64,000 nt of DNA, taken from positions 124,001 through 188,000 of the forward strand of contig CAMPDV010000374.1 of NCBI GenBank assembly GCA_946699065.1, read 5' to 3'. Under the pieces are notes generated by a model. That model saw nothing but the letters and a program-made list of their open reading frames with translations. It ran no database searches and was not told the origin of the DNA. This DNA is from Loxodes magnus (taxonomy: Eukaryota; Ciliophora; Karyorelictea; Loxodida; Loxodidae). The position numbers and the translations under genes are program-made. Positions 3,535-57,443 of the stretch are shown here, one piece after another (positions within the stretch are counted from its first letter, which is position 1; each line of letters starts with the position of its first letter).

Positions 3535-4992
3535 CAATAGCATTTTTTCTCCTATAATGCTAAACTTTGGTTTTTTCCATAAATCTAAGGTAATTAAGTC
3601 ATTTTATCTCAGCGTTTATTCATTTAAATGATTTTTTATGATTCTATCAGTTACTATCTATCTCAGGTGCAATTTAAATAATTATTTAAGTAATTTTTAT
3701 TCTTTAGAATTAAATATTTTGCTATCAATCTATAATTTCTTATCCTTTATTTAGCTTTTCTTTAGGTATCTTATTTATATTTATGTATCTTTTATTTCAA
3801 CTTTTTATTTCTTGTTACATATTTTACTACTTTTTGTTATTTTTCAACCCAATTTATTATTAATTTTATTTGCTTTTTTATCTTCTTCATAGTATCGTGT
3901 CTAATTTTTTGTTAGTTTAAACATCATCAAATTGCCAAATGACTTAAATTTACACATATGTAGAACTTTTTGTTTTATTCTTGTGAAGGTTTTTAGCTAT
4001 TTTTCTGTTGGAACTAAGCTTTTGTTTATACCAAAGGGAATTAGGTAGTTATTATTATTGTCGTATTAATTTATATTTCTCTTCTTGTTAAAATATAAAA
4101 GTTTAATATTATTATATTTTATGCTAGAGATTTATTAATTTATTCTTAATAAAATAAAACAGTTAGAATAAGTCCAGTTGCTATTATTCATACTTAATCT
4201 ATATATTATCCTAATTCTCTCTAACAGTACTCGAAAGTTCCATTAATGCAAAAGTTAAATTATTTTTGCTATGTTTGAGTTGTAACGTTTAAAATGTCTC
4301 TCTATAATCGATAGATTATTCCTATTTCTTAGACGAAGTTTTCTATTTTATTCTCTTTATTTTCTTCAAAAAAATTGCTCATTAAAATATTTTATTTTCT
4401 GCTAATTTTATTAGTTTATCTTATTTTTCTTGTCTTTTCTCATCATTAAACATCCCTTCTAAAAACTTTATATGGATGCAACTGAGTATAGTTTAATGGT
4501 ATATCATATTAATCTCGAAAAATTATTATTTTGAGTTTTTATCGAGAGTATATGCGTTATAATGGCTTTATTTCATTATTGGCTATAGAAGGTACATTTT
4601 TAAGTATATATTAGCTAGTTTAAATAATATAAAGGAAATAATTTATTTTAGACTTGAGATGTTGGCTTGAAAATAGTAGTGATTACTTAATTAGTATTTA
4701 GATAAAGGTATAGCTTAATTAATTTGAATATAAGAATGTATTTAAAGATAGTTTTTTTGACTATGTTGAATATAACTATGTTACAAACTGTATGTTTGTA
4801 TCTGAATAATGATAATATTTGAATAATAGATTTTTAAAGATGTTTAGATAAAATTTGATTCTTTATTTATTTCAAACACTTTAAATATTTTAATAAGTTT
4901 AACATATTTACCTAATTATATATCTTTAAACTACTTCATTGCATATAAAACTATATTTATTATAAATAATATAGATATTATTATTATGTTTA
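3535..4992. other. AT-rich intergenic region
   Basis: About 1.45 kb, T-rich on the plus strand, lying between the small plus-strand ORF and the 3' end of the convergent RING-kelch gene. I found no frame with convincing protein composition and no RNA gene or repeat array. Confidence 0.4.
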
Positions 4993-6387
4993 TCAGTTAT
5001 GACTTCTAATACTTCTATAACTCAATTTTTCTAAATCAATCCTCATTATTACAACTCTTCTCTATTCTATAGCAAAAACATATCCATAGTTATTTCTTAT
5101 TTTCATCTCCGTTAAAGCTTCAACATCTTTAAAAATTTAGCTTTATTGTCATTACTCTTTGCTTCTTTTATATATTTTTCTTAAATATTCTTTCATCTAC
5201 AAATTTTTCATACCTCCAAATATGATAAAAGGCTCTAATGAAATTATAGGATAAGCAACAGCTTCAGGAAGACTCAAATTTTACTTACTCCATTTATCAT
5301 TCTATATGTTATACTTTCATATATCTTTTAAAATATATTTTTACTAATTAAACCCTCCAAAAGAATAAATATTTTATTCATCTTTATCTACTACTAAAGT
5401 TTAAAAAGCTATTTAGAATGGAAATTAAGAACAGTTTTATCATTTACTTTAGTTTCCTATCTTTAACTTTTCTACTGATCATAAAGCTTGATTATTACTA
5501 GTAATTCCTCCAACCACATAAATATATTTTTAAGCAGCTGCTATTCCAAAGTCAGTTCTTCCCTCATTTAGATCACTGAGTTTTATATTATTACCTTCAT
5601 AATCAAACTACCAAGTTTCTTTTATTCATTTCTTTTAATTTTCGTTATATCCTCCAATTAAATATAACTTATTTTAATATTCTATACTTTTACTATAGTC
5701 TGGAATTATAATTTAAACTTAGATTTATCGTAATTACTCTGTTTAAATATTAAATAAACTTAATTTTTAAATTTCAAAATCAAAATAGTGAATATAGTTA
5801 GATTATATGGAGTGGTAGCTTATTTTATGTTAATTAGTCTAAATCTTATTTGGTTACTTAGTATTGTATTATAGTTTTTATCTTATTAGATTGTAAGTTA
5901 ATTTAGAGTTTAGTATTGTAGGTGGTTATGAGTTATATTAGAGTATAGTTGGTTTTAGTGATTAGTAGAATTAGATAATATTTGAGTGTTATTTTTGGTA
6001 GATAAATGTTGGTTAATGATTGATGATGATATTAGTTAGTGGTATTATGAGAGTATTACTAATGTTTGATTATTTGGTTGTAATGGTTTTAGATTTTTCC
6101 ATAATTTACCTCCTTATCTCTTTTAATTTCTATCTAGCATCTTAAATCTTTTATATGTATTATTAGTTTTAAAATATCACTCTTATTAAATCACTTTCTT
6201 AAGGTAAATCATCAAATCTAAAATGGAATCCTTTTTAACAAATAGGACATTACATTATGCCTTATAATCAGTACTGAGTATTCAAACACAAACCACAGTA
6301 AATATGTCCACAAGGTAAGACAGTTGGAAGAGCATTAGTTAAGTTGTAATCTTCTAAGCAGATTAAGCATTTTGGTAACGCTTACAT
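4993..6387 (-). CDS. RING finger plus kelch-repeat protein
   Basis: A single uninterrupted 465-codon frame from ATG (6385-6387) to TGA (4993-4995). Residues about 5-55 form a C3HC4 RING finger: CLIC at the start, CGHIYC in the middle and CPIC at the end. A Q/N/I-rich linker follows (roughly residues 70-210). The C-terminal half carries kelch blades, visible as LYLIGGY, YVVGGI, YSFGGF and FIIFGG spaced about 50 residues apart. RING proteins are usually E3 ubiquitin ligases, and kelch repeats form a substrate-binding propeller, so a substrate-specific ubiquitin ligase is the natural inference. Only about four blades are seen, fewer than a full six- or seven-blade propeller. The frame uses TGA for tryptophan at least four times beside ordinary TGG codons, yet ends at TGA. 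It is the cleanest single-exon evidence for the code in this window. Confidence 0.85.
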
Positions 6388-12123: not shown

Positions 12124-12262
12124 TTTATTTTTTAATTTTAGTAGTAATTATTCTTATGCTTATTAAGTTTTAAGCTAATAAAAGAATCTTTTTTATTAAT
12201 GGCTAAGTATCTCTTAAGCCAAAAAATAGTTTCTTTTAATTTTTAGTTTATTCAAAAATAAA

Positions 12263-13596
12263 ATGCAAGCATCTAAATGTGAAGCCAGTGAAGAAGAGTT
12301 CAACTAAGAGTTCATATGCAATAATCATAACATCATCACTGATAGACCAATTGAATAATTGGAAATGCTAGATTCACATATTAAAGAAGAGTCAAAGTAA
12401 AGCCATTTGGGTATATATTAAGAGCATAATGAGATTCTAGCTGTGTATTGTATGATTGATAGTACATTAATATGTGAAAAATGTCAATAGGATTCTCATA
12501 AGAATCATCAATGGGGTAGATAAGAGGAGATCGTTCCTATTATGTAAGTTCGAATGTAAATGACTTTGAGTGCTATAAAGGAGAGGTTAAATCAATATTC
12601 TTCTGTATTAGGTCAATGATAAAAGTAGTTGTTTGAGGATTATGCGATAAATATAAAATATATAGTATAGATCTATGATAAAATCAAGAGAAGTTTAGAG
12701 TAAGCATGTGAGGAGGTGGTGATAAGAGTATAGGAGAAAGTAAATAGTATAGGTACGAAATAAGTTAAAATAATCTTTTTGAGTAAGTAGAGAGTATCGG
12801 GTTAATGTAATAGGCATCTATATAGTAATGTGAGATAAAGAAGGCTGAGATAGAGAGATTGGAAATATAGCTTTAAGAGAATTAAATAAAGGATGAATAA
12901 AAATATTCTTAATATAAAGCTATTCTTAACTTAAAGAATATGGAAGCTTAGGTCTTTGAGAGAATGATGAAGGAAGTTCAGTTTAGTTAAGAATAAGAGT
13001 TGCGAGTTAGAGTATAGAAACAATCCTTTTAGAGTATTATATAACATTTATGATAGGAGTTGTAGAATGTAAATAAGGAAAGTAAAGAATAAATTTAAAA
13101 GTTAAATTAAGTTATTAGAGATAAGGAATTTATATTTAATTATTTGAGGGAATAAATATCTCGCTACTAGAAAGTAATAGAAGAGTAAGAAATATAGCGT
13201 GAGAATTTGATATAGTAGTAAAATACTATCTTGTAGTAAAAAATTTTCGAGTTATAAGGCTATAAAAATAAGTTAGAGGAATAATCTAAGTGTTTGAATG
13301 AGTAAATAAAAAGTTTATCAAACTAGGGCGTTTAATATTAAAGGCAAATAAGTGAGTTGTTGTAAGCTATTGAAGAGAAGGATTAGAAGAATCAATTTTA
13401 AAAGTTTTTTAATTTTTATTAAAAAATTTCATACTAAAACATATTGTATTACTATATATAAATTATTTCCAGTTTTCTTTTATTATTCCAAAATTATAAA
13501 TCTTAGTCTCTTTCCAAATTCTTATTAAATATAAAAAGCAGAGTAAATACGATTTTTTTAATTTAGTAAAAAGTTGCTTATTTTAACTTTTTATGA
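12263..13596 (+). CDS. B-box zinc finger coiled-coil (TRIM-like) protein
   Basis: The ATG at 12263 opens a protein whose residues about 15-95 contain two Cys/His clusters. The second has B-box spacing: H, then YC, ICEKC and H-x3-H around 12420-12520. The rest is a long Q/E/K-rich coiled coil to about residue 400, so the layout is that of a TRIM protein lacking its RING and C-terminal domain. The frame shifts near 12760. A 38-nt GT-AG intron at 12753-12790 would join the two parts in frame; a 20-nt alternative at 12764-12783 also works. The coiled coil ends near 13395, but the first in-frame TGA is at 13594-13596, so the last 65 residues, which are low-complexity, may be untranslated. B-box coiled coils usually mediate oligomerisation. 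The role here is unknown. Confidence 0.65.
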
Positions 13597-13629
13597 CTAT
13601 AAATTTAATAAATGTTACTATTTAAAATT

Positions 13630-13974
13630 AATTATTCTTTAAAATAATTGAAAAGATGGTGGGAGTTGAGAATGACCTTCGTGACAACACTTTCTGGTTT
13701 TATGGCTAGGAACAAGTTCCTTTCCTGTCGCTGAGAAAGTCCCTGGTCAGAGTCCTTTTCTGAAGGGAACACTGTCTTTGAGATTATCCGCTCTTGGTAG
13801 GGGCTTGAAGCCTGGCTGCTCATAGTGATGGAGCTCCCTAGCAGCTGTGTCTGGAGCACAACAGGATATCCCTGTTATTCCATAAAAAGAGAGCGTCGGG
13901 TCGTGCAATTGGAAAGGAGTTTCCGGTCCAAAAACTTTTTTAGTTGAAATTAATTAATAAATTATTCTTTAAAA
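13630..13974 (-). mobile_element. Short interspersed element, copy A, with 15-bp flanking repeats
   Basis: A GC-richer block of about 300 bp, flanked by perfect copies of AATTATTCTTTAAAA at 13630-13644 and 13960-13974. It is homologous, in the opposite orientation, to the block at 56747-57077. Shared landmarks include CTTTCTCAGCGACAGG, CCAAGAGCGGATAATCT and CTCCCACCATCTTTT. The flanking repeats differ between copies, as expected for target-site duplications. On the minus strand the block reads as a peptide containing PRADNL and GTFSATG, and this reading is largely shared with copy B. It may therefore be a piece of a larger element's coding sequence rather than a non-coding SINE. No clear Pol III A/B box was found. 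It lies 33 nt after the B-box gene's TGA. Confidence 0.75.
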
Positions 13975-14221: not shown

Positions 14222-17200
14222 ATGATCAAAAGTTCTGCACCTTGCTCAGATATAACTCCTAATAAACGGTCTTTAAGTACTAATATTTCAGGTGATAAAA
14301 CTTACACATAAACATAAATCTGAAAAGAAGGAAATAATAAATATACAATAAACAATGAAATTAATAAAAAATAGAGAAAAATTTAAAAGAAATGGTAGAA
14401 TATAATCAAATATTAATAAATTAAGAAACAAAAAAGAATAAATAAATCCTAGAAGATATTGATCTTAAGATTAAAAAAACATGGTCTAGCATAAAACAAA
14501 AACATTAACAAATAACTTGATTTTAAGAATGATTGAGGGAAAAATAAATCCATTAGTAATATTTGAATAAAGAAGACTTAAAATAATTATTTTTAGAATG
14601 AACAAAGATACAAGAAGAAGAGAAACTAAACTAAAAAAAATCAAATCAAAACAATAATGAAGACCTAAGAGTTTCAGAATGAGAGTGATATCATAAAAAT
14701 TATTTTATTAAGCTGAAAGGCGAATATTATTTAATTTAATTTAAATATTTCAGGTGATATGAGCGAGGATAGGTATTTGATATTTGGATATCTGCAGTCA
14801 GGGAGCTTCATCACTATAAACTGTCTATCGTCAAGTCCTTATTAATGGTAAATCGGATAATCCAATTTTACATTGAATCAGGATGCTATATTCATGCTAG
14901 TGACCTGTAACTAATTGTAGACGAAGCACTACTCTGAAGCCACCAAATTTAAATTATGAATTAATGTGAGATATGCTCTCGAACATTTATAATTGCAAGA
15001 AATATAATTACGATGTTTAAAATATCTTTGTTCTATACTAAAAAGTTTACTTAAAATAAATTCAAAGACTAATTCTCATAGTTTGAGTAAGACATAGACA
15101 AAGATAATATTTGCCTATCTTGCAATCTAATGATAGACAATTGTTAGAAATGTCATAAGGCTAATGAAACGGTGATATGCGATGATTGCTTTACTAACTA
15201 CGGACTAGGAGAAAATGAGTGCTTTTTATGCAGTGAAATACACTAAGATTGTTTCAAATGTAAATAGAAAGGCTTTTTTCTGCAATGTAGGACTCTTATA
15301 CTTTCTAATAGAACATGCAAAATTTAGTGTGGTGATATAGAGCAAGATAATGATTATGACTAAATTAATCTACTTTGTATCTAGTAGCTTTAAAACTGTA
15401 ATAAGTGTAAAAAGCAAAATAAATAATGCTTTGAGTGCTAAAGAGGATTTTTCCTAGATAACAACAATTAATGCTATTTTTGTTCAGTAATTAATCCGAA
15501 TTGCATTAGTGCTCAAAGTCAACTGAATGCACATTATACTAAGATTAAAAGTTATCTAATGGAAATTGTGTCGAACAATGGTTTTCGACAGAATAGGATT
15601 AATCAAAGTCAGGTGCTTGTAGTTCTTGCAGCTAAACAATAGATAATTGTTTAGAGTGTTCTAAAGATGAAAACTTATGCCTCTCCTACTTCTTTCTGTA
15701 TAGCTTAACTGAAAGCATCAGTTGCGATTCAAATATGTCATAAGAAGAATAATCTAATAAATAGAAGGTTGAGGATAAGTAACGGATTATTAACATATTT
15801 AATATAGCAACTTCAGAAAAAGAAGCTATTAAGAAAATTTCACAGATGTAGGATACTACTATAATGTGGAAGTTGGTTCAGCAACAGCAATTAGTCTTTT
15901 CTTTCTTCGAGTGGATCAACTGGAAATATCTTTACATTCATATTAGCAAACTATTTTTTTATAAAATGGTTTAATAAATGTTGAAAAAGTCTGCAATATT
16001 ATTAGCATACTTCTAGCAGGTGAATCAGAGTTTGTTGAAAAGCCATCAAAATAACTAAATCAAGATGTTTATTTGAATTCACTCTAAAATGGCTTATTTG
16101 AAATAAGTAAATGAGGAGAAAATTCTTTCTTACCAAACATCTCAGCAAACTTTATTGTAATACTTGTAGTTATTGAATGTGAATTGTTATTATAACTCGA
16201 TTTAAATACACTTAAAGCAAAAAATTAAGTAATTTTAAACTCAAGTACTTACATTACAGATTGGTTTTGGCTCTTTATTTCGAATTTAGCTTAAAGATAG
16301 GCTACTCCTCTGCTTATAAGCTAAATATTTTAGCCTAGAAAACTCATGAACTGCTGTAAACTTAATATCAGCCTGCTTAAGCTTAGTAAGCTTAATTTTA
16401 GGTTTTGCAAACATCAGTCATCTTTTACTTGTTTTGGGTAATTATTAAGTTCTTGAAGATTAAGAATAAAACAAACCCTGAGAACTAGAACCAGAAATAC
16501 TACTTTTGTGATATCAAATGAAGTATTTGATGAACTTAAAACTGAAAAATTGGTTTTGCTGTTTTAACCTTTATTTTTGATCCAAATGTTCTTGTTAACT
16601 TACTTTTTGAAAGGGCTTAGATATAACTCTTCACTCTAAACGACTCTATGTTAAGTTTAGACTCAATTTAAGCTTTTTTTTTACTTGCTTGTTAGCCTTT
16701 CGAGTCACACATGGTTAGCAAAGCTTACATATTCTAAGAGATATGAATGTCCTTTCTATATTTTTTTAATTTCTATTTCTTAGCCTAAGACAGTAGCAAA
16801 AGAACAAGAAATCTAGAGACAATAAATTCTGATAGAGCTAAGATAATTGGGAAAGTGATAGTGCTAGTGTAAGATAGCATCTCATTTATTTGCTTGGTTT
16901 ACTGTTTCTTTTCAATGATAAAAGATCTGATAAAGTATATAAGGAAAATAGGGAAAATAGGGAAAATAGGGAAAAAGAAGCAAGAGTTTTAAAATAACTG
17001 GCTAGAAATTTATTAGAGACAAAACCTAACTAAGGCTAAGGGATTTAAGAGTGCATTATTTAATTTTCTTGAGATCTAAATAATTACAAGCATCAGAATG
17101 ATTTTAGTAATGAGGAGTCGTTTCAAATCTAACACAATAATTCTCGATTATTTCTAAAGAGGAATATGAATTATAAATTTTAACCATCTGAAATCAGAAC

Positions 17201-20200
17201 ACAGGTAAGTTTCTATAATTTAAAAGTTAGATTTTATATACAATTAAAACATGAACTAGATAAGATAAATAATAAGATATAACTCAAGTCTCAGCTAAAA
17301 GATCAGGAATAAAAATTAATATTTATCTTAAGTTAAGAAATCATATAACTGGCTAAGATATATAGCAAAGCGACTGCATAAAAGTGCTATAATTAAAGAT
17401 CTGATAAAGGGATTATCCCACAAGTATTAAATACATATGAAGAAGGAAAATACTGTAAAGTTAAATCCACCAGATAGAAAGCCCCAAAGAAGGAAAAAAA
17501 GAGTAGATAGATGAAAATTACTTTTAGTTTGACGATTAATAATTAAATTTGTATCTATACTTTCTAAAAGCTGCTTTATATCTATGTTTTGCACTTTAAT
17601 CTTATAACTTAAGAATCACCATGCAAGATAATAAAATAGAAGAGAGATATGTAATTAATCTTGTTATATTTATCTTTAAGCATAGTTAAGTATTCTATTG
17701 ATAAAAACTAATCAGAGTAAGTAAGTAAGAATGAATAACCAGATTTATCTTTTAAGTGATAATATAGAATGAGAAGAGTAAATCATTCTTTTTTAGCAAT
17801 GCAAGCTTATAAAATAACTTAAGTAATTAAATAAAGCAAATGCATAATGAGACTCTAAACTTTAATTATATAGTAAAGCACTTAATCATCAAAGATAGAA
17901 GTAACTATATTTTAGACCGTTTTGTTCTTTTTAGGATTTAAATTTTTTACTTATATAGGTATTTAGTTATGTATTTAATGTAAATATTAGTTAAACTTAA
18001 AAACTAATGGCTTATATTTAATTAATTAGAGAAAGCTAACTATATAATTATTTTCTATCTACTATTTAAATCATCCTCTGCTTTTAGAGAAGGCTAGAGA
18101 TAAGTATGAAACAGTAAGTTTAATTAAAAGATAAAATTTTGCTTCTTTCAGGTAAAGATCCCTTTATGTTTAGTTTATCTTGGAACTAGTACTTCATTAA
18201 TTTTATTTGGTAAGAAGCTTTTCATTATTTTTTAACCTTTCTATTTTGTATAATAAACACTATAATAATGATGATTGTTTGCTAGTCTAGCTAGGGAATT
18301 TATTGTGAAATATACTTTATAATGCTTTGTGAGAAAATCTAAATAGCATTTTGATATTGTAGTCTTTTAGCTCTTTTCTTAAATCTGAGATTAAAAATCA
18401 AGAGCTTTTCTTTCTTTATACTCCACAAATCACGGATAATTTACGCAGCTAGCAATATAAGGTGTAGACTTCTACGTTTGGTACTGCATTTTATTTTTCA
18501 TCTCCTCATTTCATTCAACCTTCAGAAGATAAGCTCAAGAATAAAAAATGCCTTTATCTAATAAAAATATCTGAACAATGGAAGATATTCCAGGTTCAAG
18601 TTATAAAGAAACAGGTAGATACCACTAAGTTAAATGGCTGAATTATCCTATCTACTTTAAAATTGTTTTTCATCTCTTCTTAAACCTATAAACTTTTCCT
18701 TTGAATAAGGGAGAAGTTCATAAAGGAATCAAGCTTAAGTTTAATGATATATTTCACAGTTCTAAGTAAAATTAAAAAAATTGCTATCTAGCATTGTTCT
18801 TGCCTTTGTATATCTAATTGATTTAAGATTCGAATCTCTAAATTTATTCATTTTTTCTAGTATCCTAGAAATAAAGTTACTAGTACATTTAGTAGCATCC
18901 TTATAGTGTTTTTCTATCAAATTTAAGAACGCTTTGATATATCTACTCATATAGAGACTTAATTTTGATAGGATTCTTAATTGAACCTAATTAAAGATAC
19001 TTAGTTATTTTATCTAGTAATATCCTATAAATAAAACATCTGCTTAGTATGATAATTTTAGGAAATTATCCTTACTTAATACATTAAATGATTTAGATAG
19101 GCCAAACATATTTAGTTCCATTCCACGCTATTAACTAAAGGTAATGATATATTTTTAATCCCTTGTATCTAAGTAATTTAAAGTATGAGTGTCTCTTTTA
19201 CATTTATTCTTATTTTACTTAACTGTCTATTTATTTATACTCCTATTACTTTTTAATTTAGTTAAAGGTAATTTATTTAAACCATTTGATAGCTATATGA
19301 TTATACAAGCCTATATTAGAAGCAAAGCTATAATATTTAATAAGCTTTTATATGTAAATATCAGATGCTGATTGTAAGATGCTTAAGCTTTATTAAAAGA
19401 CTCTAACTTGCTATTTAGTAGATTTAGTTTTATTAGCATTACTCTTATCTGTTATTACTGCTATCTATCTATATTAAGTAACCTAGTTTATCCTAGCAGA
19501 TATAGACATGCATACACTTAGTTTTAGTACTATGTGGATGTTACTAGATATGCTAATTCACATTCTCTAGGTTTTTTATTTATGGTCTTTTTGGTAATTT
19601 TTATTAATATAAAATGGATCAAAGTGATAGCTTCATAAAAAGGCTAGTTTAAATAACTAAGTAATAAGAATCTTAGACTTTAAGACTGGAAGAAAATGAA
19701 GGCAGTCAAAAGAGAAAGGAATATTAGGTGCTAGATCTTTTGATAGGAGAAGGGTATATGACTGATAAGCTTTTTGGTGAAAGGATAGTAGTTAGCTATT
19801 TAGAGAGTAAATAGCTTTAGTACTCAAAATTAATACTTTCCTAGGAAATCAGCTAGATGAGAAACTCAAACGGTTATAGGGATTTAAAGGAATAAAACTC
19901 TGGCAATTAACCTATCGATAAAGGATTAGAAGTAGATCAACAATCTTTCTAGCAATACACCTAAAACTCTCCAATCTACTCTGTTGAAGACTAAACGTTC
20001 ACTACTACAAACCTAGAAACAAACGAAAATTAATTAAAAAAAAGCAACGAAATAGAATACATTTAAGCCCTCAACACTCAAAGCAATGAAGAGAGTATAA
20101 GAGAAAGACAGCTGAATATAGATAAGAATTTATTAGAAAGCAAAAGAGTAGAAAATAGAATTCTGATAAATAATAATAGACTCAAGGTTTTTATTTTATA

Positions 20201-23200
20201 AACTTAAAATTAAATTCAGTCAAATAATAAATTGAACTTTGTTTAATTAAACTGAGAACTAGTAATATAGAAATGATAACAAGTGAAGACTTCTTAAGAG
20301 CTTTAAAAAGAGTTAGTTTGTATGCTTAAGTAAAAATTCGGGTTAGTTCAAATCTTGTATTCGCTGGTGCTTCAGGAGTAGGTTGGCATGGAGTGGAAGT
20401 AAGTTTTAGATTAGTGAGGAAAGATTGACTAGAAGGAAAGTTTTGACTATAGGTAGGTTAAATAGATGCTTTAGTAAAAGGATTCAGAGTAGCTGGACTA
20501 AATCTAGAGTTAGTTGGTTAGTTTATTATCAAGGAGAGAAGATAGATAAATTGCCTATCTATATGGAAATAAATAAGTCTTATTCTAAATCTCTTTCAAT
20601 AAGCTAGATATCGAGTCCTTCTTCAGCAAGGAGAAGAACAATTTTTTAAAGCTTATCAAACTAGCGAGAAAGGAAGAGCTGTAAGAGACTGATCTAGAAA
20701 TAAAGGAAATTTCAATCTAAACTCAAAGTAAGTTAATGGTTAAACTATGCTGCTAGGATAAAGCCTAGGAACTTAATTTATTTTATAGAGAACAATAAAT
20801 TAAGTAAGCTTAGCCTAAAGTAAATGATTATAGAGGGGCATAAGAAGAGAAATTATCAAGCTATCAAATAATAGAAAAGCTTTATGATTGCTTCAACAAA
20901 TGACTATTTAGCTATGAGTAGCTATTGTAAATAGATATCAATAGAGACAAAAATAACATAGTTTTAGAGTATTTGGAGTAATAAGATAGCACTACTAGAT
21001 AATAATACTCAGTTTATGTATTGAATAAGCATAACGAAGCTAATTGTGAAAACTGCTAAGAATTCATTAAAATATAGAGGTAGCAAGTAGTAATAAAGCT
21101 ATCATAAATCTGCTAAGATGAATAGCAGAAATTATAACTCATAGCGTTTCTAAGGGATGGGATAGAACTTACGAAGATTTTATACGCTTGGATAATCTAA
21201 GACTGGATAGGGATTAATTTCATAACAGCTCTATAAGTTTTATAAAGATACTAAATAGCATAAAATTAAGATACGGAACTAATAATACTTCAACTAGAAA
21301 ACAACTAAATCTAAAACTTGGAGTAGCATTTAGAAGACTAAGACTTAGAGACTTAAGGAGATAATATATGACATAATGTCTTAATTTTTTAAAACTAGTA
21401 AAGTATCTTAGAGATATAGCTTTGGGGATTTCTTGTAATATCTTTTAGTAAAGATAGCAACCATTGAAGGTATAAACTATAAGAGAAACTTGATAAAGTA
21501 TAGACTAACTTTAGGATAGAAAAGGTGGATAGGATAATAGTTTAAAATGATATGAACTATTTATAGTTATATGGATAGGATGCTAAGTTGCTTTATGCTT
21601 ACATGTCTAGTTAAGAAGATATGAATGTTGAATAGATAGAGTATCCTGAATACTTGAGAGGCAAGCTTATAGAAAGTAAAGAAATTTGATAAGACTAGAT
21701 ATAAAATAAAATTCTCTTGCTTCAATGCTAACAAATATGCAACTCTGTGTAGAAAAATTGATACCATAATGAAGACTAGTAGAGAATAGGAATTTACTCT
21801 GAAGATGAATGAGTATAAACTTAGAAAGAAGTATTGGTAGAAAGACTGAAAGTGTATATGCAAAACGAAGGTATTGTTCAAGAATCAATAAACTAGGCAA
21901 TATAAAAATACTCAAATGATAGCACTAGTAGCTTATATAATATCATATTTAGCACTATTATAGATAATCTATCTGTATAAGGAAAAAATAAGGAGTTAAA
22001 AGAGTAATAACCATAGCTTACTTAAGAGTTTTATTTTATCCATAGGAAAATAAATAAGTTCTTAAAGCAAACTTTTGGAAGAGTACCAGGTAACGAAAGT
22101 TGGGCTTAGTATATATTAAAGATCTAGTAAGTATGAAATTGAATAATCTAAAATGAAGTAGAAAGTTAGAGGAACTAATTTTAAGAAAATGAAATTAAAG
22201 ATTTGAAAGTGCATTAAATTAATAACAACGTAGTTGCTTTGTTTATTTCTCAGCTTTTTAAACCTAGAAATTAAGATTATTTAAGTTTTATAGTATTTGA
22301 AGAAGTAGAATAGGAGAATGATTGGCATCATTTTACTAAATATCCTAACTAATAAATTGTTAGGTACTGTAGGGAAAATATCAAAAGTGAAAGCTAAGTA
22401 AAATAGTTTGTTTAGTAGCTTCAATAATAGGGAGTTTTAGAACTTGTTTGAATCAAAATTTTTTAAAATCTAAAGAGCTTCACAACACTGATGTAAGTAA
22501 TAAATTAAATTGACTAGAACTAAGCGAAAATTGATAAACATCAAGTGTTAGAATTACTTGAGCAAGGTTAAATGGAAGAGTTTTATAAGCTAATAGAAGC
22601 ATGTCTAGAGGACTATCACACGGCTAATCCTCAATTTTTGTTCTTCATAAACAAAGAAAAGTTTCTTTACTGGATAATTCTAGACTAATAAAGGAGGATC
22701 ATTCAATGTCCTTATTACTTAGGACAAAACAATCCTTCAATTTTATTCGATCTACTTAACTAGCTATAGTGAGATAATATAGTCATATCATTCTACGATA
22801 AGCCTAAAAATTATTTCTATGAAAGCAAGTTTATAGAGCATTACTTAAAAATAGATCCTCAAGTATATTTTAACTCTTTGGATCTGAATGGCACAATTAC
22901 AAGCAACTATCAAACAATTTTTCCAGGATACACCTTAATTAAAGCTATTTACAACCATGATAAAGCGATATTACTATAAGCAAAGAATTGGAACGGTTAA
23001 TTAAGAGCTATAAAAATCCTAAAAAATGGAGATTAGACTAAATAGCTAGAATAAGTTATTCATAAACTATAAGCTAATAAAGAGAGATATGAAAAGCACT
23101 GCATCCAAATCTATAACTATTCCTTTAATAAGCTTACTCATACTTACTGGATGGAAATGCAGTATTGTGAATCAGGAAACTTATAGCAAGCTATATAGAA

Positions 23201-26200
23201 AAAATAACCTTTTAAGGTTAAAGAAATATTCGATGTTTTTAATTAAATGGTGGAAGCTCTTGCTTTCCTTCAAGAAATAGGGATATATCATTAAGGCATA
23301 AAGCCTAAAAATATTTGGATAGAAAAGTAGTAATTTAACTAAGTTCAGTAAAAGCAAACATATAAACTAGGACATTTTGATTAGGCAGATCCTTTGCTAT
23401 CTATAAGATATCAAGATACCATAAAATAATATGATCAGTACCAGTCTCCATAAATAGTATTGAAGCAGTAAATAAACCTTTTTAAATCTGACGTTTTTTC
23501 GCTAGGTATTACTTTATTAGAAATAGCTTCACTTAAAGATTGCTCTCGACTCTAGCTAAACTAAATAAAAAGGAGCGAGGAAGAATTAAGTAGTTTAATT
23601 GACAAAAGACTTTGACATTATCAATAGGATTAGAATTATGAAGATTTATAGGTACTCTTGCTTAATTTACTTCAATGAGAGGAACACTAGAGATTTGATT
23701 TTAAAGAATTGAAACGAAAAGAAGTTCGAAGAAGCTTTTAGGTTTACTAAGTCTAAGATAGTAACTTCACGGTTAGTAGAATTTAATCCAACTAGTCAAC
23801 TTTTCAAAGACTTCAAGAAGAGAATTATAATCAGTACTAAGTTGACTAAGAGAGTTTAGATAGACTTAACGAAGTATATTTCTAATAGAGTTCTAGTGAT
23901 TTAGAGTATTAAGGCCAAGAAACTAGTAACTAAAACTCTTAAAGAGAAGTAATGCAACCATGTTAATAGTATGCTAATAGCCAATGAGATCTAAAGAACT
24001 AGCATAATTTAAACTACTTAAAAGAGCTCAGGAAGAAGGAAAGGATTCCTTTTTTAAAACTTAAAGAAGTATAGCAAAAGTAGTCATAAAGGTTTTATTT
24101 GATCAAGCTAATATAGCAAGATCTATACACCAAATAGTATTCTAAGTACTATATTTCAGATCAAGTATCATTTCATAATTAAACTTATGTAGGATAAATA
24201 AACGAATTCTATTAACCTGAAGGAATGGGAAGAATGCTGAATGAAGAGATCTATTATGAAGGAGAATTTAAAAATGGACTAAAGCATGGAAATGGTATAA
24301 TAGTTAACCTCTTTAAATAAACTATAGAGAAAGTAGTGCATAATCTAGCCAAATAGGTAAAGTCATAAGTTATAAAGGGATATGAAACTGATGAAATTAG
24401 CTAATATTTAAGTACTGCAAATTGATTTCCTAGTATATAAATATAAAACTCTCTTATAAGCACAATTATATCACAGATGTAAGAAGCAGCATTAACTTAG
24501 ATGACTATCAATAACGAGTAAATACATCAAGTTTATAAAAATATTGACTGCTTGGAGTTTGAAGGATAAGTCAATGAATAAAGAAATCCTCATGGGTTTG
24601 GATAAATATACGATAGCCAAAACAAATGGTTCTATTGTGGATTTTTCAAACATGGTAAAAAGCATGGAAATGGGCTTATTATAGATCTAGAATTATATAG
24701 CACAGGATTCATAGAGTTTACCTATGATAAAATGGTATTTCAAGAAATACTGGATTATGATAACCAAGACTAAATAGCGATATTAAAGCACTGAAACAAT
24801 AAAATATCTGAATTCTTAATAAACTTCAGAACGTAATTCAGAATCTCAGAAATAAGCGACTTATCATAATTTGAAGGACAGAATAATATCTATGAGCTAG
24901 ACTTGTAAGACTACATAAAAATTCTAGTTAAAGATATAGAGGAAGATATCAAGTGAATAGGATTTTGAAATAGTTGTAAGATAGAGAATAAAACTTGCTT
25001 TTAAACTTATGAACAGAAAATTAAATACATAGTATGTCAGAAGCTAAACCTTTTTTTATTCGATAAAGTAAAAAAGATAAGGCAAATAGCATGCTTTACA
25101 TAAGAAAACATGTAAAAACAATAATAAAGCATTTAAAGCTAGAAAGAAGTTAAAGAAATATACTTAAATCTGAGGAGATAAATCCATGACTTTATTAAGA
25201 TCTAGAAATAATAGATTCTCTTCTTTAACTAAGTCTTAACTTCATATGACTTACTGACATACACACTCAAAAATAACTCAGATAAAATAATCAGTTAAAG
25301 CATGAAGCGAGACTAAACGGATGTGGTGAAGACAAGTCCACATCATAAAAATGAAGATTCCTATGAAGGCTAACAGCTAGAAAACTAGAAATTCAGATTT
25401 GGAGTTTATAAGTTTAAAAATGGAGACATACATAAAGGGTAATTTTTAGGAGATAAATAATATGGAAACGGTATAATATAATATAAAAATGGTGATAAAT
25501 ATGAAGGAGATGTTTTTAATAGTTAAATATGCGGAAATGGTACTTATTGATTCAAGAATGGAGATAAATATGAAGGATAGTGAATTGAAAATAAATATGA
25601 GGATATGGAACTTATTTCTACGCGAAAAAAACTTAAAATGGGAACTCTTATGAAATAAACTAGTTACTAATATAAATTAAAGAAAAATGAAAAGTGAAGT
25701 TAGATGAAATACTTTCAAAAAATTAAGAAAGTGACTAAAAAAAGATTTGGAGTATATACAAAGGAGAATGATTAAATAGTTGAAAACATGGATATGGTTA
25801 ATGAAAATTTAAAAATGGAAAATACTATGAGGGGAGTTTTGAAGAAGACACTCAATAAGGAATAGGAAAGTCAAATCTTCCAAAAAAAGAAATCTATTTT
25901 GGTTAATTTTAAAGAGGTTCGTAGAATGGCTGAGGGTTTTGTAAATTTTAGAGTGAAAATATATTCATAGGATAATATCTAAATGGAGTAATACAGGGAC
26001 TTGGAATAGCTTATTACAAAGAGAAAGATATTTATGAAGGAGAATGAATAAATTCGTAAAAATAAGGATATGGATGCTATTTATTTAGAAATGGGGATAG
26101 ATATGAAGGATCATTCTACGAGAATAAAAGATAAGGAAAAGGAATTAATGTTTATAACAATGGAGATATATATGAAGGAGAATGAATGAATGATTAATTA

Positions 26201-27703
26201 CATGGGATAGGAACTTATAAATATAAGAATGGAAATACATATTCAGGATAATGAGAATTTAATTTGCCACAAGGCAAAGGAATTTTAAGTTATTCAAAAG
26301 GAGATAAGTATGAAGGAGAATTTTTTGAGGGAAAAGTGCATGGATTTGGCATTTAATATTATAGTAATGGAATTAAATATGAAGGCTATTGAAAAAAAGG
26401 AGAGAGAGATGGACAAGGAAAATTATTTTATTCCAACGGTGATTGATATGAGGGAAATTGAAAGGAAAACGAAAAATATGGTATAGTAACTTTTTATTCT
26501 AACTAAGGAAAATATTAAGGATAAATGGAAAAAAACAAAAAGCATGGTAAAGGTAAATTATGATATGTTAATGGAGATATATATGATGGATATTGACAAG
26601 AAAATTTAAGATAAGGATATGGTTAATTTCAGTGATTGGGGAATAGTTATGAAGGATAATGGGATAAAGATAAAAAATAAGGATAGGGAAAATAAAGATA
26701 CATGAATGGAGATTATTATGAAGGAAATTGATTAAATGATTAAAAATCGGATTATGGGAAATTTAATTTTAAGAATGATGAAGAATACTAAGGACAATGA
26801 CAAAATGATAAAAGACAAGGAAAAGGAAATCAAACTTATAAAAATGGTGATGTTTATTCAGGAGATTGATTTGATGATAAAAGGCATGGAAAAGGATGTT
26901 ACAATTTTAGTAATGGAAGTATATACAAAGGTTAGTGAACAGAAAATTAACTTTAAGGAAAGGGTAAGATGTAGTACTAAAATGGAGATTGATATTAAGG
27001 AGATTTATTTTAAGGATAAAAATAAGGAATAGGTAGTTTTTATAAGTAAAATAAAGGTAAATATGAAGGAAACTGGAGAAATAATAAAAAAGAAGGAATA
27101 GGATAATTTTACTATGTGAACGGAGATTTTTACTAAGGAGAATGGAAAGATGGATTCAAACATGGAAAAGGTGTTTATAAGTATTCTAATGAAGATTGAT
27201 ATGAAGGTTAATGGAAAAAAAATATGAAAGAAGGCTAAGGAAAATAATATTATTAGAATGGAGAAGAGTATAATGGAGAATGGAAAAATGGATTAAGACA
27301 TGGATATGGAATTTATAACTGGAAAAATGGGAATAAATACGAAGGATATTGGGTAGAGGATAAGCAGTAGGGAAAGGGAGAATTATATTTATTAAATGGA
27401 GAAAAATATTAAGGAGATTGGTATTAAGGGTAGAAGAATGGTATTGGGATTTATTTTTGCTTAAACAACGAAAAGTATGAAGGATAATGAGTAAATGACA
27501 AAAAGCATGGTAAAGGATATTTTTAATACTCAAATGGAGATTTTTGTGAAGGAGTATGATAAGAAGATGTAATGACTAGTCATGAAGTTTAAAACTACAA
27601 AAGTGAAGAATAAAATCCACGTTCGAAGTCAAGTAACAAATTATCTATTTGCTAAGAAAATATAAGCAAGGAGAAAAAACTGTAACATTTTTATCAAAAC
27701 TGA
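14222..27703 (+). CDS. Giant receptor-like protein: Cys-rich ectodomain, membrane segments, pseudokinase, MORN repeats
   Basis: This appears to be one gene of roughly 4,300 residues. Order: a short N-terminus; a region with repeated C-x2-C pairs typical of furin-like or growth-factor-receptor cysteine-rich domains (about 15100-15700); a hydrophobic zone with several membrane segments (about 15890-16920); a long polar region with further hydrophobic patches (to about 19600); a Q/E-rich cytoplasmic part; a kinase-fold domain (about 22900-23720); and about 30 MORN repeats to the end. From about 15544 to 25596 (10 kb) the register never changes, which is the main argument for a single gene. TGA at 20253 and 20274 would be tryptophan. 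Likely short introns are 14900-14939, 15045-15081 and 15509-15543. A one-base deletion at 25599-25608 (GAGGATATGG where GAGGGATATGG is expected) shifts the last part to TGA 27701-27703. A split into two genes near 20255 remains possible. Function as a plasma-membrane scaffold or receptor is inference. Confidence 0.65.
14292..14753. other. 462-bp segment between 16-bp direct repeats inside the giant gene
   Basis: AATATTTCAGGTGATA occurs exactly at 14282-14297 and 14744-14759. The segment between the two CAG/GT points begins with GT and ends with AG, so a 462-nt intron is one reading. An insertion with target-site duplication or an eliminated sequence of IES type is another. Removal leaves the gene in the same register (462 = 3 x 154). 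The segment has its own coiled-coil-like reading in a different frame (about 14376-14710), so it is not simple AT filler. Confidence 0.5.
22890..23720 (+). other. Pseudokinase domain within the giant gene
   Basis: Protein-kinase fold landmarks are in order: an AIK lysine motif near 23010; a glutamate-containing helix region; hinge-like [11 protein letters not shown] near 23150; the catalytic-loop position as [10 protein letters not shown] (23292-23321) where HRDLKPxN is expected; the DFG position as HFD (23373-23381); and DVFSLGI near 23490 with its helix-F aspartate. The catalytic-loop aspartate is glycine and the DFG aspartate is histidine. The ATP-binding lysine and the LKPxN asparagine are kept. 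By comparison with the kinase family this should be catalytically dead or severely impaired, perhaps still able to bind nucleotide. Confidence 0.75.
25380..27570 (+). repeat. MORN repeat array (about 26 consecutive units at the C-terminus)
   Basis: A 23-residue unit of the form YEGxW-x5-HGxG-x2-YxNGD repeats almost without a break from about 25746 to 27570, with four or five further units at 25380-25600. Isolated units lie nearer the kinase domain (about 24170-24290 and 24550-24680). MORN repeats bind acidic phospholipids or act as membrane-apposed scaffolds. Tryptophan in the YEGxW position is often encoded by TGA and glutamine by TAA, which makes the array an internal proof of the code. Confidence 0.9.
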
Positions 27704-37400: not shown

Positions 37401-38085
37401 CGTAAGCTCCTTCATAAAAAATGGATTAAACATAAAAATTAAACTGAAAAAATAAAATTAATAAAATCCTCATGTAAAATACTATTTTTATTAAGAATCT
37501 TTACACAAAATTTAAGCTAAAGTAATTTAAATATCTAATACTAACACAAAAATTAAAATTAAAAAAATTGCATAATTAAACAAAATTAATTATTAACTAT
37601 AAAAATATTAATTATCTAAATGATTTTTTAAACTAAACCAAACTAAAATACAAAATAAATATATAAATATATAAATTATAATTTTTTTAATTAATAAGAG
37701 TTATTATTAAGTATGAAAGTAATTCACTCTAAGATTGCGTTACCAAACACATTCATCACTATTATAATTAAATTTATTCTTACAACCTTTTGCATTAGTG
37801 ATCAAATTACCCCCTTATTAATTTTTACATTAAAACATACATTCTACCATGCTAACAATATATGTTACTTCCTAAAAAATTGTCATAAAACAGATACAAT
37901 CTATTAAATAAATAAAATATACTATAAATACCCCTTACATTCTAAATTAATTAAGGTCCAAATTTACCCACTATATAAGGAAAAGGGTTTGTGATAAAAT
38001 ACATTCATCTAATATTGTTAATAAATAACTATTACCAACTTTAAAGCATATATCAATTTTTAATTATCATCTAAAATGATTAATA
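34469..38085. other. Long gene-poor AT-rich region
   Basis: About 3.6 kb of near-pure A/T sequence with frequent A and T runs. I see no frame with balanced composition, no GC island and no tRNA-like fold. It borders a minisatellite and may be a structural or replication-related spacer, but nothing in it proves this. Confidence 0.45.
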
Positions 38086-38089
38086 AATA

Positions 38090-38760
38090 CTTACATTCTA
38101 TTGTTTTAATAATATTAAATTTTGTACTTACCATCTATAGTTTTAAGAATAATAAATGTTTAATTACTTGCTATATTTTTAAGAATATTAAATATTTACT
38201 TATGTGCTATAATTTTTAGAATATTAAATTTTATACTTACTTCCTATATATTTAAGAATATTAAATGTTTCACTTACTTTCTATATTTTTAAGAATATTT
38301 AATGTTTACTTACATACTATATTTTTAAGAATATTAAATGTTTTACTTACTTCCTATATATTTAAGAATATTAAATGTTTCACTTACTTTCTATATTTTT
38401 AAGAATATTTAATGTTTACTTACATACTATATTTTTAAGAATATTAAATGTTTTACTTACTTCCTATATATTTAAGAATATTAAATGTTTCACTTACTTT
38501 CTATATTTTTAAGAATATTTAATGTTTACTTACATACTATATTTTTAAGAATATTAAATGTTTTACTTACTTCCTATATATTTAAGAATATTAAATGTTT
38601 CACTTACTTTCTATATTTTTAAGAATATTTAATGTTTACTTACATACTATATTTTTAAGAATATTAAATGTTTTACTTACTTCCTATGTATTTAAGAATA
38701 TTAAATGTTTCACTTTTTTGCTATATTTTTAAGAATTTTTAATGTTAAACTTACCTATAT
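38090..38760. repeat. 110-bp minisatellite made of about 37-bp subunits
   Basis: TTCCTATATA recurs at 38241, 38351, 38461, 38571 and, with one change, 38681, giving an exact 110-bp period over about five near-identical copies. Each period contains three diverged subunits of 36-37 bp built on TTTAAGAATATTAAATGTTT and ACTTAC. Degenerate subunits extend upstream to about 38090 and end near 38760. Near-identity of the central copies implies recent unequal exchange or slippage. Confidence 0.9.
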
Positions 38761-53615: not shown

Positions 53616-53687
53616 ACCCGACTAGCTCAGTCGGTAGAGCGTCAGACTCTTAATCTGGTGGTCGTGGGTTCGAGCCCACGTTGGGCG
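53616..53687 (+). tRNA. tRNA-Lys (anticodon CTT)
   Basis: A complete cloverleaf: D arm with AGCTCAGTCGGTAGAGC, anticodon stem CAGA/TCTG enclosing CTCTTAA (anticodon CTT), and T arm GTGGG/CCCAC with TTCGAGC loop. A-box and B-box promoter elements are intact and a T-run follows at once as Pol III terminator. The only flaw is the first base pair of the acceptor stem, where A faces C instead of the usual G-C. Confidence 0.9.
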
Positions 53688-53724: not shown

Positions 53725-53796
53725 TTCCGCATCCGGGGCTTGAACCCCGATCTTTCGTATGAGAGCCGATTATCCTAAGCACTAGACTAAAGGGGA
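53725..53796 (-). tRNA. tRNA-Glu-like gene (anticodon CTC), probably a pseudogene
   Basis: On the minus strand the sequence follows tRNA-Glu closely (TCCCCTTTAGTCTAGTGCTTAGGAT, loop CTCTCAT giving anticodon CTC). However, the acceptor stem has C-C and T-T mismatches, the anticodon stem pairs poorly at both ends, and the T stem has a G-G mismatch. Compared with the neighbouring intact tRNA-Lys this looks decayed. It is convergent with that gene, 37 nt away. Confidence 0.7.
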
Positions 53797-56746: not shown

Positions 56747-57077
56747 TATATAATTAAATTAATAATTTTAACTAAAAGAATTTTTGGAACTGAAACTCCT
56801 TTCCAGTTATACGACCCGATGCTCTTTTTTTAGGAATACTGGGGATATCCTATTGTGTCCAGAAACAGCTACCAGGAAATTCCATCGCTATGAGCAGCAA
56901 GGCTTAAAGCCCATACCAAGAGCGGATAATCTAGAAGACAGAGTTCCCTTGAGAAAATGATTCTGAACAGGGACTTTCTCAGCGACAGGGTAGGAACTTT
57001 TTCCAAGCAAGAAAAGTTTAGTCAAGAAGGTCAATCACAGCTCCCACCATCTTTTAAATTATATTATATAATTAAAT
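56747..57077 (+). mobile_element. Short interspersed element, copy B, with 13-bp flanking repeats
   Basis: The same roughly 300-bp element as at 13630-13974 but in the opposite orientation. TATATAATTAAAT flanks it at 56747-56759 and 57065-57077. The core runs from TTTTTGGAACTGAAACTCC (about 56780) to CTCCCACCATCTTTT (about 57053). Relative to copy A it has point changes, a one-base loss in the first third and small differences near the end, but PRADNL and GTFSATG are still readable. The immediate upstream neighbour is the Gag-like gene's stop codon. Confidence 0.75.
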
Positions 57078-57443
57078 AATTCTCTTAAGCTTTCTTTCTT
57101 ATTTTTAATTTTTTTGGTATGGTAGTTATGCTAAATTTTGAAATCTGAAAGAAAGATTGCTAAATTTTTTATGTAGCCATAAATGAAATAACTGCTTTAG
57201 TTGAAGTAAAAATAAGCAAAGTATGCTAAAAAATTACAAATGGCGAACAGGAAAATAATAAAACTAAACTGTTTATAATTGAAAGGAGCAAAAATGATAG
57301 CTTTTTTATAATTTTATTATTTTTGTTAAAAGCAAAAAGATTATATTTCATGTTACTTAAATAAAAATTATAAATATTTTTTGTTTTTAGTCAATAAAAA
57401 AAATCTGAAATCCAGCATTCTAGCTTAATATTTATTGAATAAA

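Follow-up and report, generated by a model that had tools for sequence, protein, structure and literature searches.

The closest described counterparts of this locus are found among MORN-repeat proteins, protein kinases and ciliate surface proteins. TbMORN1 and the radial spoke and flagellar MORN proteins carry 23-residue repeats with YxGxW and GxG motifs, and the same repeats are present here, with the difference that they number ~30 and are placed behind a pseudokinase. ULK1-like and other eukaryotic protein kinases share the kinase fold, as judged by profile, with this pseudokinase; they have the HRD and DFG motifs, whereas it lacks both, and the two are likened at the level of the fold, not of the kinase group. 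Ciliate Cys-rich surface proteins contain closely spaced C-x2-C motifs, a spacing also found here, but the membrane part at this locus is only putative and its Cys-rich stretch matched no Pfam family above cut-off. MORN repeats and a kinase are reported to occur in one chain in plant phosphatidylinositol phosphate kinases (PMC7725318); as these are characterized in that source, they are lipid kinases with N-terminal MORN repeats, whereas the pseudokinase here is of the protein-kinase type and the repeats are C-terminal. Our literature search retrieved no paper that joins "MORN repeats" with "pseudokinase", which is no proof of novelty.

The locus lies in a 64-kb stretch of Loxodes magnus DNA, referred to here as the window. 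A pseudokinase-MORN scaffold gene adjoining a separate Cys-rich gene is the arrangement that we consider rather likely, and a fusion of the Cys-rich, kinase and MORN parts was not supported. In Loxodes magnus, TGA is reported as the sole stop, introns are usually short (mean 19.3 bp, mode 17), 3'-UTRs have a mean length of 53 bp and 18.6% GC, and in-frame TGA and TAA are depleted over ~20 codons ahead of true stops (PMC11441545).

Results

The features of the interval, with the evidence for each, were as follows.

14938-15486 (+): Cys-rich stretch, frame 1 (9 CxxC counted over 14938-15780); CxxC count against shuffles
15487-15509 (+): candidate 23-nt GT-AG intron, frame 1 to frame 0; permissive gene model, length and frame checked
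15510-15780 (+): Cys-rich stretch continued, frame 0 (2 CxxC); CxxC count
17735-19613 (no strand): stretch without clear plus-strand coding signal, containing the GC trough 17920-18074; coding signal, GC, shuffles, gene model
19614-20148 (+): frame-0 coding-like stretch, which may close an upstream gene, open the kinase gene or form a separate gene; coding signal
20149-20253 (no strand): GC trough, candidate gene boundary; GC windows, gene model
20164 and 20253 (+): candidate stops in this trough, TGA in frame 1 and TGA in frame 0, respectively
20273 and 20322 (+): candidate starts past the trough, ATG in frame 2 and ATG in frame 0, respectively
20322-25595 (+): frame-0 coding stretch with an N-terminal region without known domain, the pseudokinase and the first MORN repeats; coding signal, domain profiles
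22983-23720 (+): pseudokinase domain, HQG for HRD and HFD for DFG; PF00069 profile, ULK1 alignment
24255-24323 (+): isolated MORN repeat, frame 0; repeat matrix
25362-25568 (+): three MORN repeats, frame 0; repeat matrix
25569-25650 (+): MORN repeat starting in frame 0 and continuing in frame 2, with one base lacking at 25596-25600; control scoring
25757-27544 (+): 25 MORN repeats, frame 2; PF02493, repeat matrix
27701-27703 (+): likely stop TGA, followed by 15% GC; downstream GC, gene model

Genetic code and composition of the window

The GC content of the window was 18-29% in 2-kb steps, and under the standard code just two stop-to-stop frames of at least 100 codons were present in 13-29 kb. 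Sense use of TGA as Trp and of TAA/TAG as Gln was read directly from the MORN repeats: the Trp codon at repeat position 5 was TGA in 12 of 19 cases and TGG in the other 7, and 48 of the 59 Gln codons of the array were TAA or TAG. This codon use fits NCBI table 27 (karyorelicts), and table 28 is also compatible. We infer that TGA serves as a stop as well, and the window would then come from a genome of ciliate type whose karyorelict-like code reads TAA/TAG as Gln and TGA as Trp, with TGA also taken as the stop.

Elsewhere in the window, a kelch-repeat protein (4978-6234, -) and a B-box zinc finger stretch (12251-13402, +) were observed. A GC-rich repeat of ~340 bp was present in two copies of opposite orientation that were 82% alike (13626-13965 and 56750-57081); it had no Rfam match and looks like an interspersed retroposon. 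Two Arf-like GTPase copies, at 31.2-31.8 kb (+) and 49.2-49.9 kb (-), showed frame changes and ~75% DNA identity over ~270-290 bases, and the copy at 49.2-49.9 kb, judged by eye, looks like a pseudogene. A tandem array at 38072-38760 gave self-matches at many offsets. Two tRNA matches lay in opposite orientation with 37 bases between them (53616-53687, +, and 53725-53796, -); the Rfam search returned two tRNAs and nothing else, and ARAGORN found only the one at 53616-53687 (+), a tRNA-Lys.

The pseudokinase and the MORN array

The domain search of the table-27 translation, which the first-pass annotation had proposed, matched PF00069 and PF02493. The kinase-fold domain claimed there was recovered in frame 0 at 22983-23720 (+) with 84.6 bits (E 9.6e-24, cut-off 31.7), and the best PDB matches of the region were ULK1 chains (E 1.8e-09). 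In the alignment to ULK1, HRD was replaced by HQG and DFG by HFD, and the two catalytic aspartates by which an active protein kinase is recognized were lost from the domain; the lysine of the AIK motif was retained, as judged by eye. As far as these motifs tell, the kinase of this gene is probably inactive, in agreement with the earlier claim that it is dead. A structure predicted for the kinase region from its sequence alone had a mean pLDDT of 33.3, and no relatives of the region were present in a scan of viral contigs.

The MORN array matched PF02493 with 230.2 bits in frame 2, and its PDB matches were solved MORN1, radial spoke and flagellar MORN chains, with E-values down to 1.9e-56. The repeats were tandem and 23 residues long, with GxG at positions 12-14. 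A matrix derived from the frame-2 repeats gave scores above 8 to 25 repeats of frame 2 and to 4 of frame 0; in 200 shuffles of a 1241-residue protein, the best score per shuffle had a 99th percentile of 2.9. Together with one repeat that straddles a shift of frame and a few degenerate copies recognized by eye, these 29 repeats gave a total of ~30 over 24.25-27.54 kb, which is the number that had been claimed.

The kinase-MORN stretch shifted from frame 0 to frame 2 at ~25.6 kb. The straddling repeat, which lacked one base, ran in frame 0 from 25569 and resumed in frame 2 at 25601 with GYGTYF, and none of 4377 control positions scored as high at that repeat position. A missing base is preferred as the origin of the frame change because frame 2 holds the exact repeat continuation GYGTYF. 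GT-AG stretches of 20, 32 and 29 nt (starting at 25663, 25663 and 25699; the 20-nt one is 25663-25682) would also carry frame 0 into frame 2, and it is possible that an intron now bridges the slip; assembly error, mutation, slippage and such an intron are all candidates. A 17-nt intron at 25540-25556 was rejected as the cause, as it would cut a clear MORN repeat.

Extent of the kinase-MORN gene

The kinase domain and the MORN repeats were consecutive in one coding stretch, and the proposal that one gene encodes the pseudokinase and ~30 MORN repeats held up; its further join to the Cys-rich part was not supported. One frame (frame 0) was maintained only over ~19.6-25.6 kb, and the kinase stretch was constant over more than 5 kb.

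Windows of 100 nt with GC of at most 0.16 were found at 17920-18074 and 20149-20253 and nowhere within the kinase-MORN stretch, where all 7170 windows were richer in GC than the 20.2-kb minimum. The 53 bases after TGA 20164 (frame 1) contained 15% GC, the same as after TGA 27701; inside the gene, none of the 16 in-frame TGAs of the kinase stretch and two of the 21 of the MORN stretch were followed by 19% GC or less. TGA 20253 (frame 0) was followed by 26% GC, with four TAA among its preceding 20 codons. The last 20 codons contained one TGA and no TAA before TGA 20164, and no TGA and two TAA before TGA 27701; by upstream TGA/TAA depletion, neither is a clean stop. A frame change that would bring frame 1 to TGA 20164 was looked for and was not found.

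Gene boundaries were also evaluated with a home-made gene model, trained on the kinase-MORN gene with the membrane composition set by hand, under six settings. Forcing a break at 20.2 kb cost 11.6-15.6 nats, slightly above the charge of 10-13 nats for a single start plus a single stop. The gene end near 20.26 kb that the first-pass annotation had named as counter-evidence to one gene fits the GC trough; the coding model was indifferent or slightly unfavourable to a break at that place. Left free, the model began a gene at ATG 19614 and read it across 20.2 kb in all six settings, in line with the possible, if doubtful, reading that the kinase-MORN gene begins at ~19614 and takes in the frame-0 stretch ahead of the trough, with the Cys-rich gene ending near 17.7 kb. 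Against such a start, the same gene reached 27703 in only three settings and terminated at 22451, ahead of the kinase domain, in the other three, followed by a second gene from 22491, and the trough at 20149-20253 resembles a UTR. The split at 22451/22491 was not itself credited and shows the weakness of the model.

The Cys-rich stretch and the interval behind it

The C-x2-C repeats noticed in the first reading were confirmed: over 14938-15780 (+), nine CxxC motifs in frame 1 and two in frame 0 were counted, and no frame of 300 dinucleotide shuffles contained more than four. The stretch matched no PDB chain at E <= 1. Along 14.9-16.3 kb the frame was 1, then 0, then 2. The list of candidate introns that contains 15487-15509, 20095-20111 and 25540-25556 is too permissive to trust. 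Another reading takes the frame changes of the Cys-rich part, and perhaps of more of the interval, as mutations or assembly errors in a gene that is decayed or full of errors. This reading would agree with the MORN repeat that is one base short and with the two Arf-like copies, which change frame, one of them at several points (as judged by eye against an Arf sequence); it is unlikely, however, given that the kinase stretch holds a single frame for more than 5 kb and that the 23-nt GT-AG stretch at 15487-15509 would account for one of the changes.

The membrane segments proposed behind the Cys-rich stretch were not distinguished from chance. Over 15.8-16.8, 16.8-17.9 and 17.9-19.6 kb, the best plus frame contained 2, 2 and 4 membrane-like windows, against shuffle maxima of 3, 3 and 8; for 17.9-19.6 kb, the best-frame mean of the 200 shuffles was 3.88. 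At 16.8-17.9 kb, the two windows lay in one plus frame (best-frame shuffle mean 0.34), and up to five were counted on the reverse strand, the shuffles covering the plus strand only. The ~1.9 kb at 17.74-19.61 kb that separates the Cys-rich part from the kinase side had no clear plus-strand coding signal. In this part, the free model drew a reverse-strand gene at 18.1-19.6 kb, at least partly, in all six settings; Pfam gave nothing above cut-off in the three reverse frames of 14.2-20.2 kb, and codon statistics are the whole of the support for that gene.

One gene or two

The first-pass annotation had described a constant register over 10 kb. This was not observed: the Cys-rich part is read in frame 1 and then in frame 0, frame 0 also holds the kinase, and most MORN repeats lie in frame 2. 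Such frame differences alone are no argument against a fusion because very short introns could explain them. Forcing one gene over 15.3-26.5 kb cost 3.0, 11.7, 22.4, 33.0, 28.9 and 42.1 nats under the six settings, the cost being only 3 nats under the most permissive intron setting. The claimed chain, in which one gene with several very short introns would join the Cys-rich ectodomain and membrane segments to the pseudokinase and ~30 MORN repeats and which we put at ~4,000 residues, is quite improbable: the coding-like frame 0 from 19.6 kb, the free model crossing 20.2 kb, a 17-nt GT-AG stretch at 20095-20111 that would enter frame 2, TGA-free from there to 20426, the short introns usual in Loxodes magnus (PMC11441545) and the low cost in one setting are consistent with it, but the lack of a clear coding signal on the plus strand at 17.7-19.6 kb, counts of membrane-like windows no higher than in shuffles, the two GC troughs and a cost as high as 42 nats stand against it.

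Discussion

In the preferred reading of two adjoining genes, the 14.9-27.7 kb interval would contain at least two plus-strand genes. One of them, from ~14.9 to 17.7 kb, would encode the Cys-rich stretch and perhaps membrane segments. The other, from ~20.3 (or 19.6) to 27.70 kb, would encode an N-terminal region without known domain, the pseudokinase and ~30 MORN repeats; both sets of boundaries are inferred.

By analogy with solved MORN proteins, the MORN array may fold into a long beta rod for self-association or docking. The pseudokinase may act as a binding module rather than as an enzyme, and together with the MORN rod it could form a cortical or ciliary scaffold. The rod with its pseudokinase would accordingly point to a scaffold and not to a receptor tail bound to lipid, and, so read, the pseudokinase-MORN protein is an ordinary sort of scaffold protein.

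The fusion, if true, would couple sensing at the cell surface and a MORN scaffold within a single protein, making it a receptor-like pseudokinase that brings its own scaffold. This locus also illustrates how adjacent genes can appear joined where introns are short, frames slip and the code has no plain stops.
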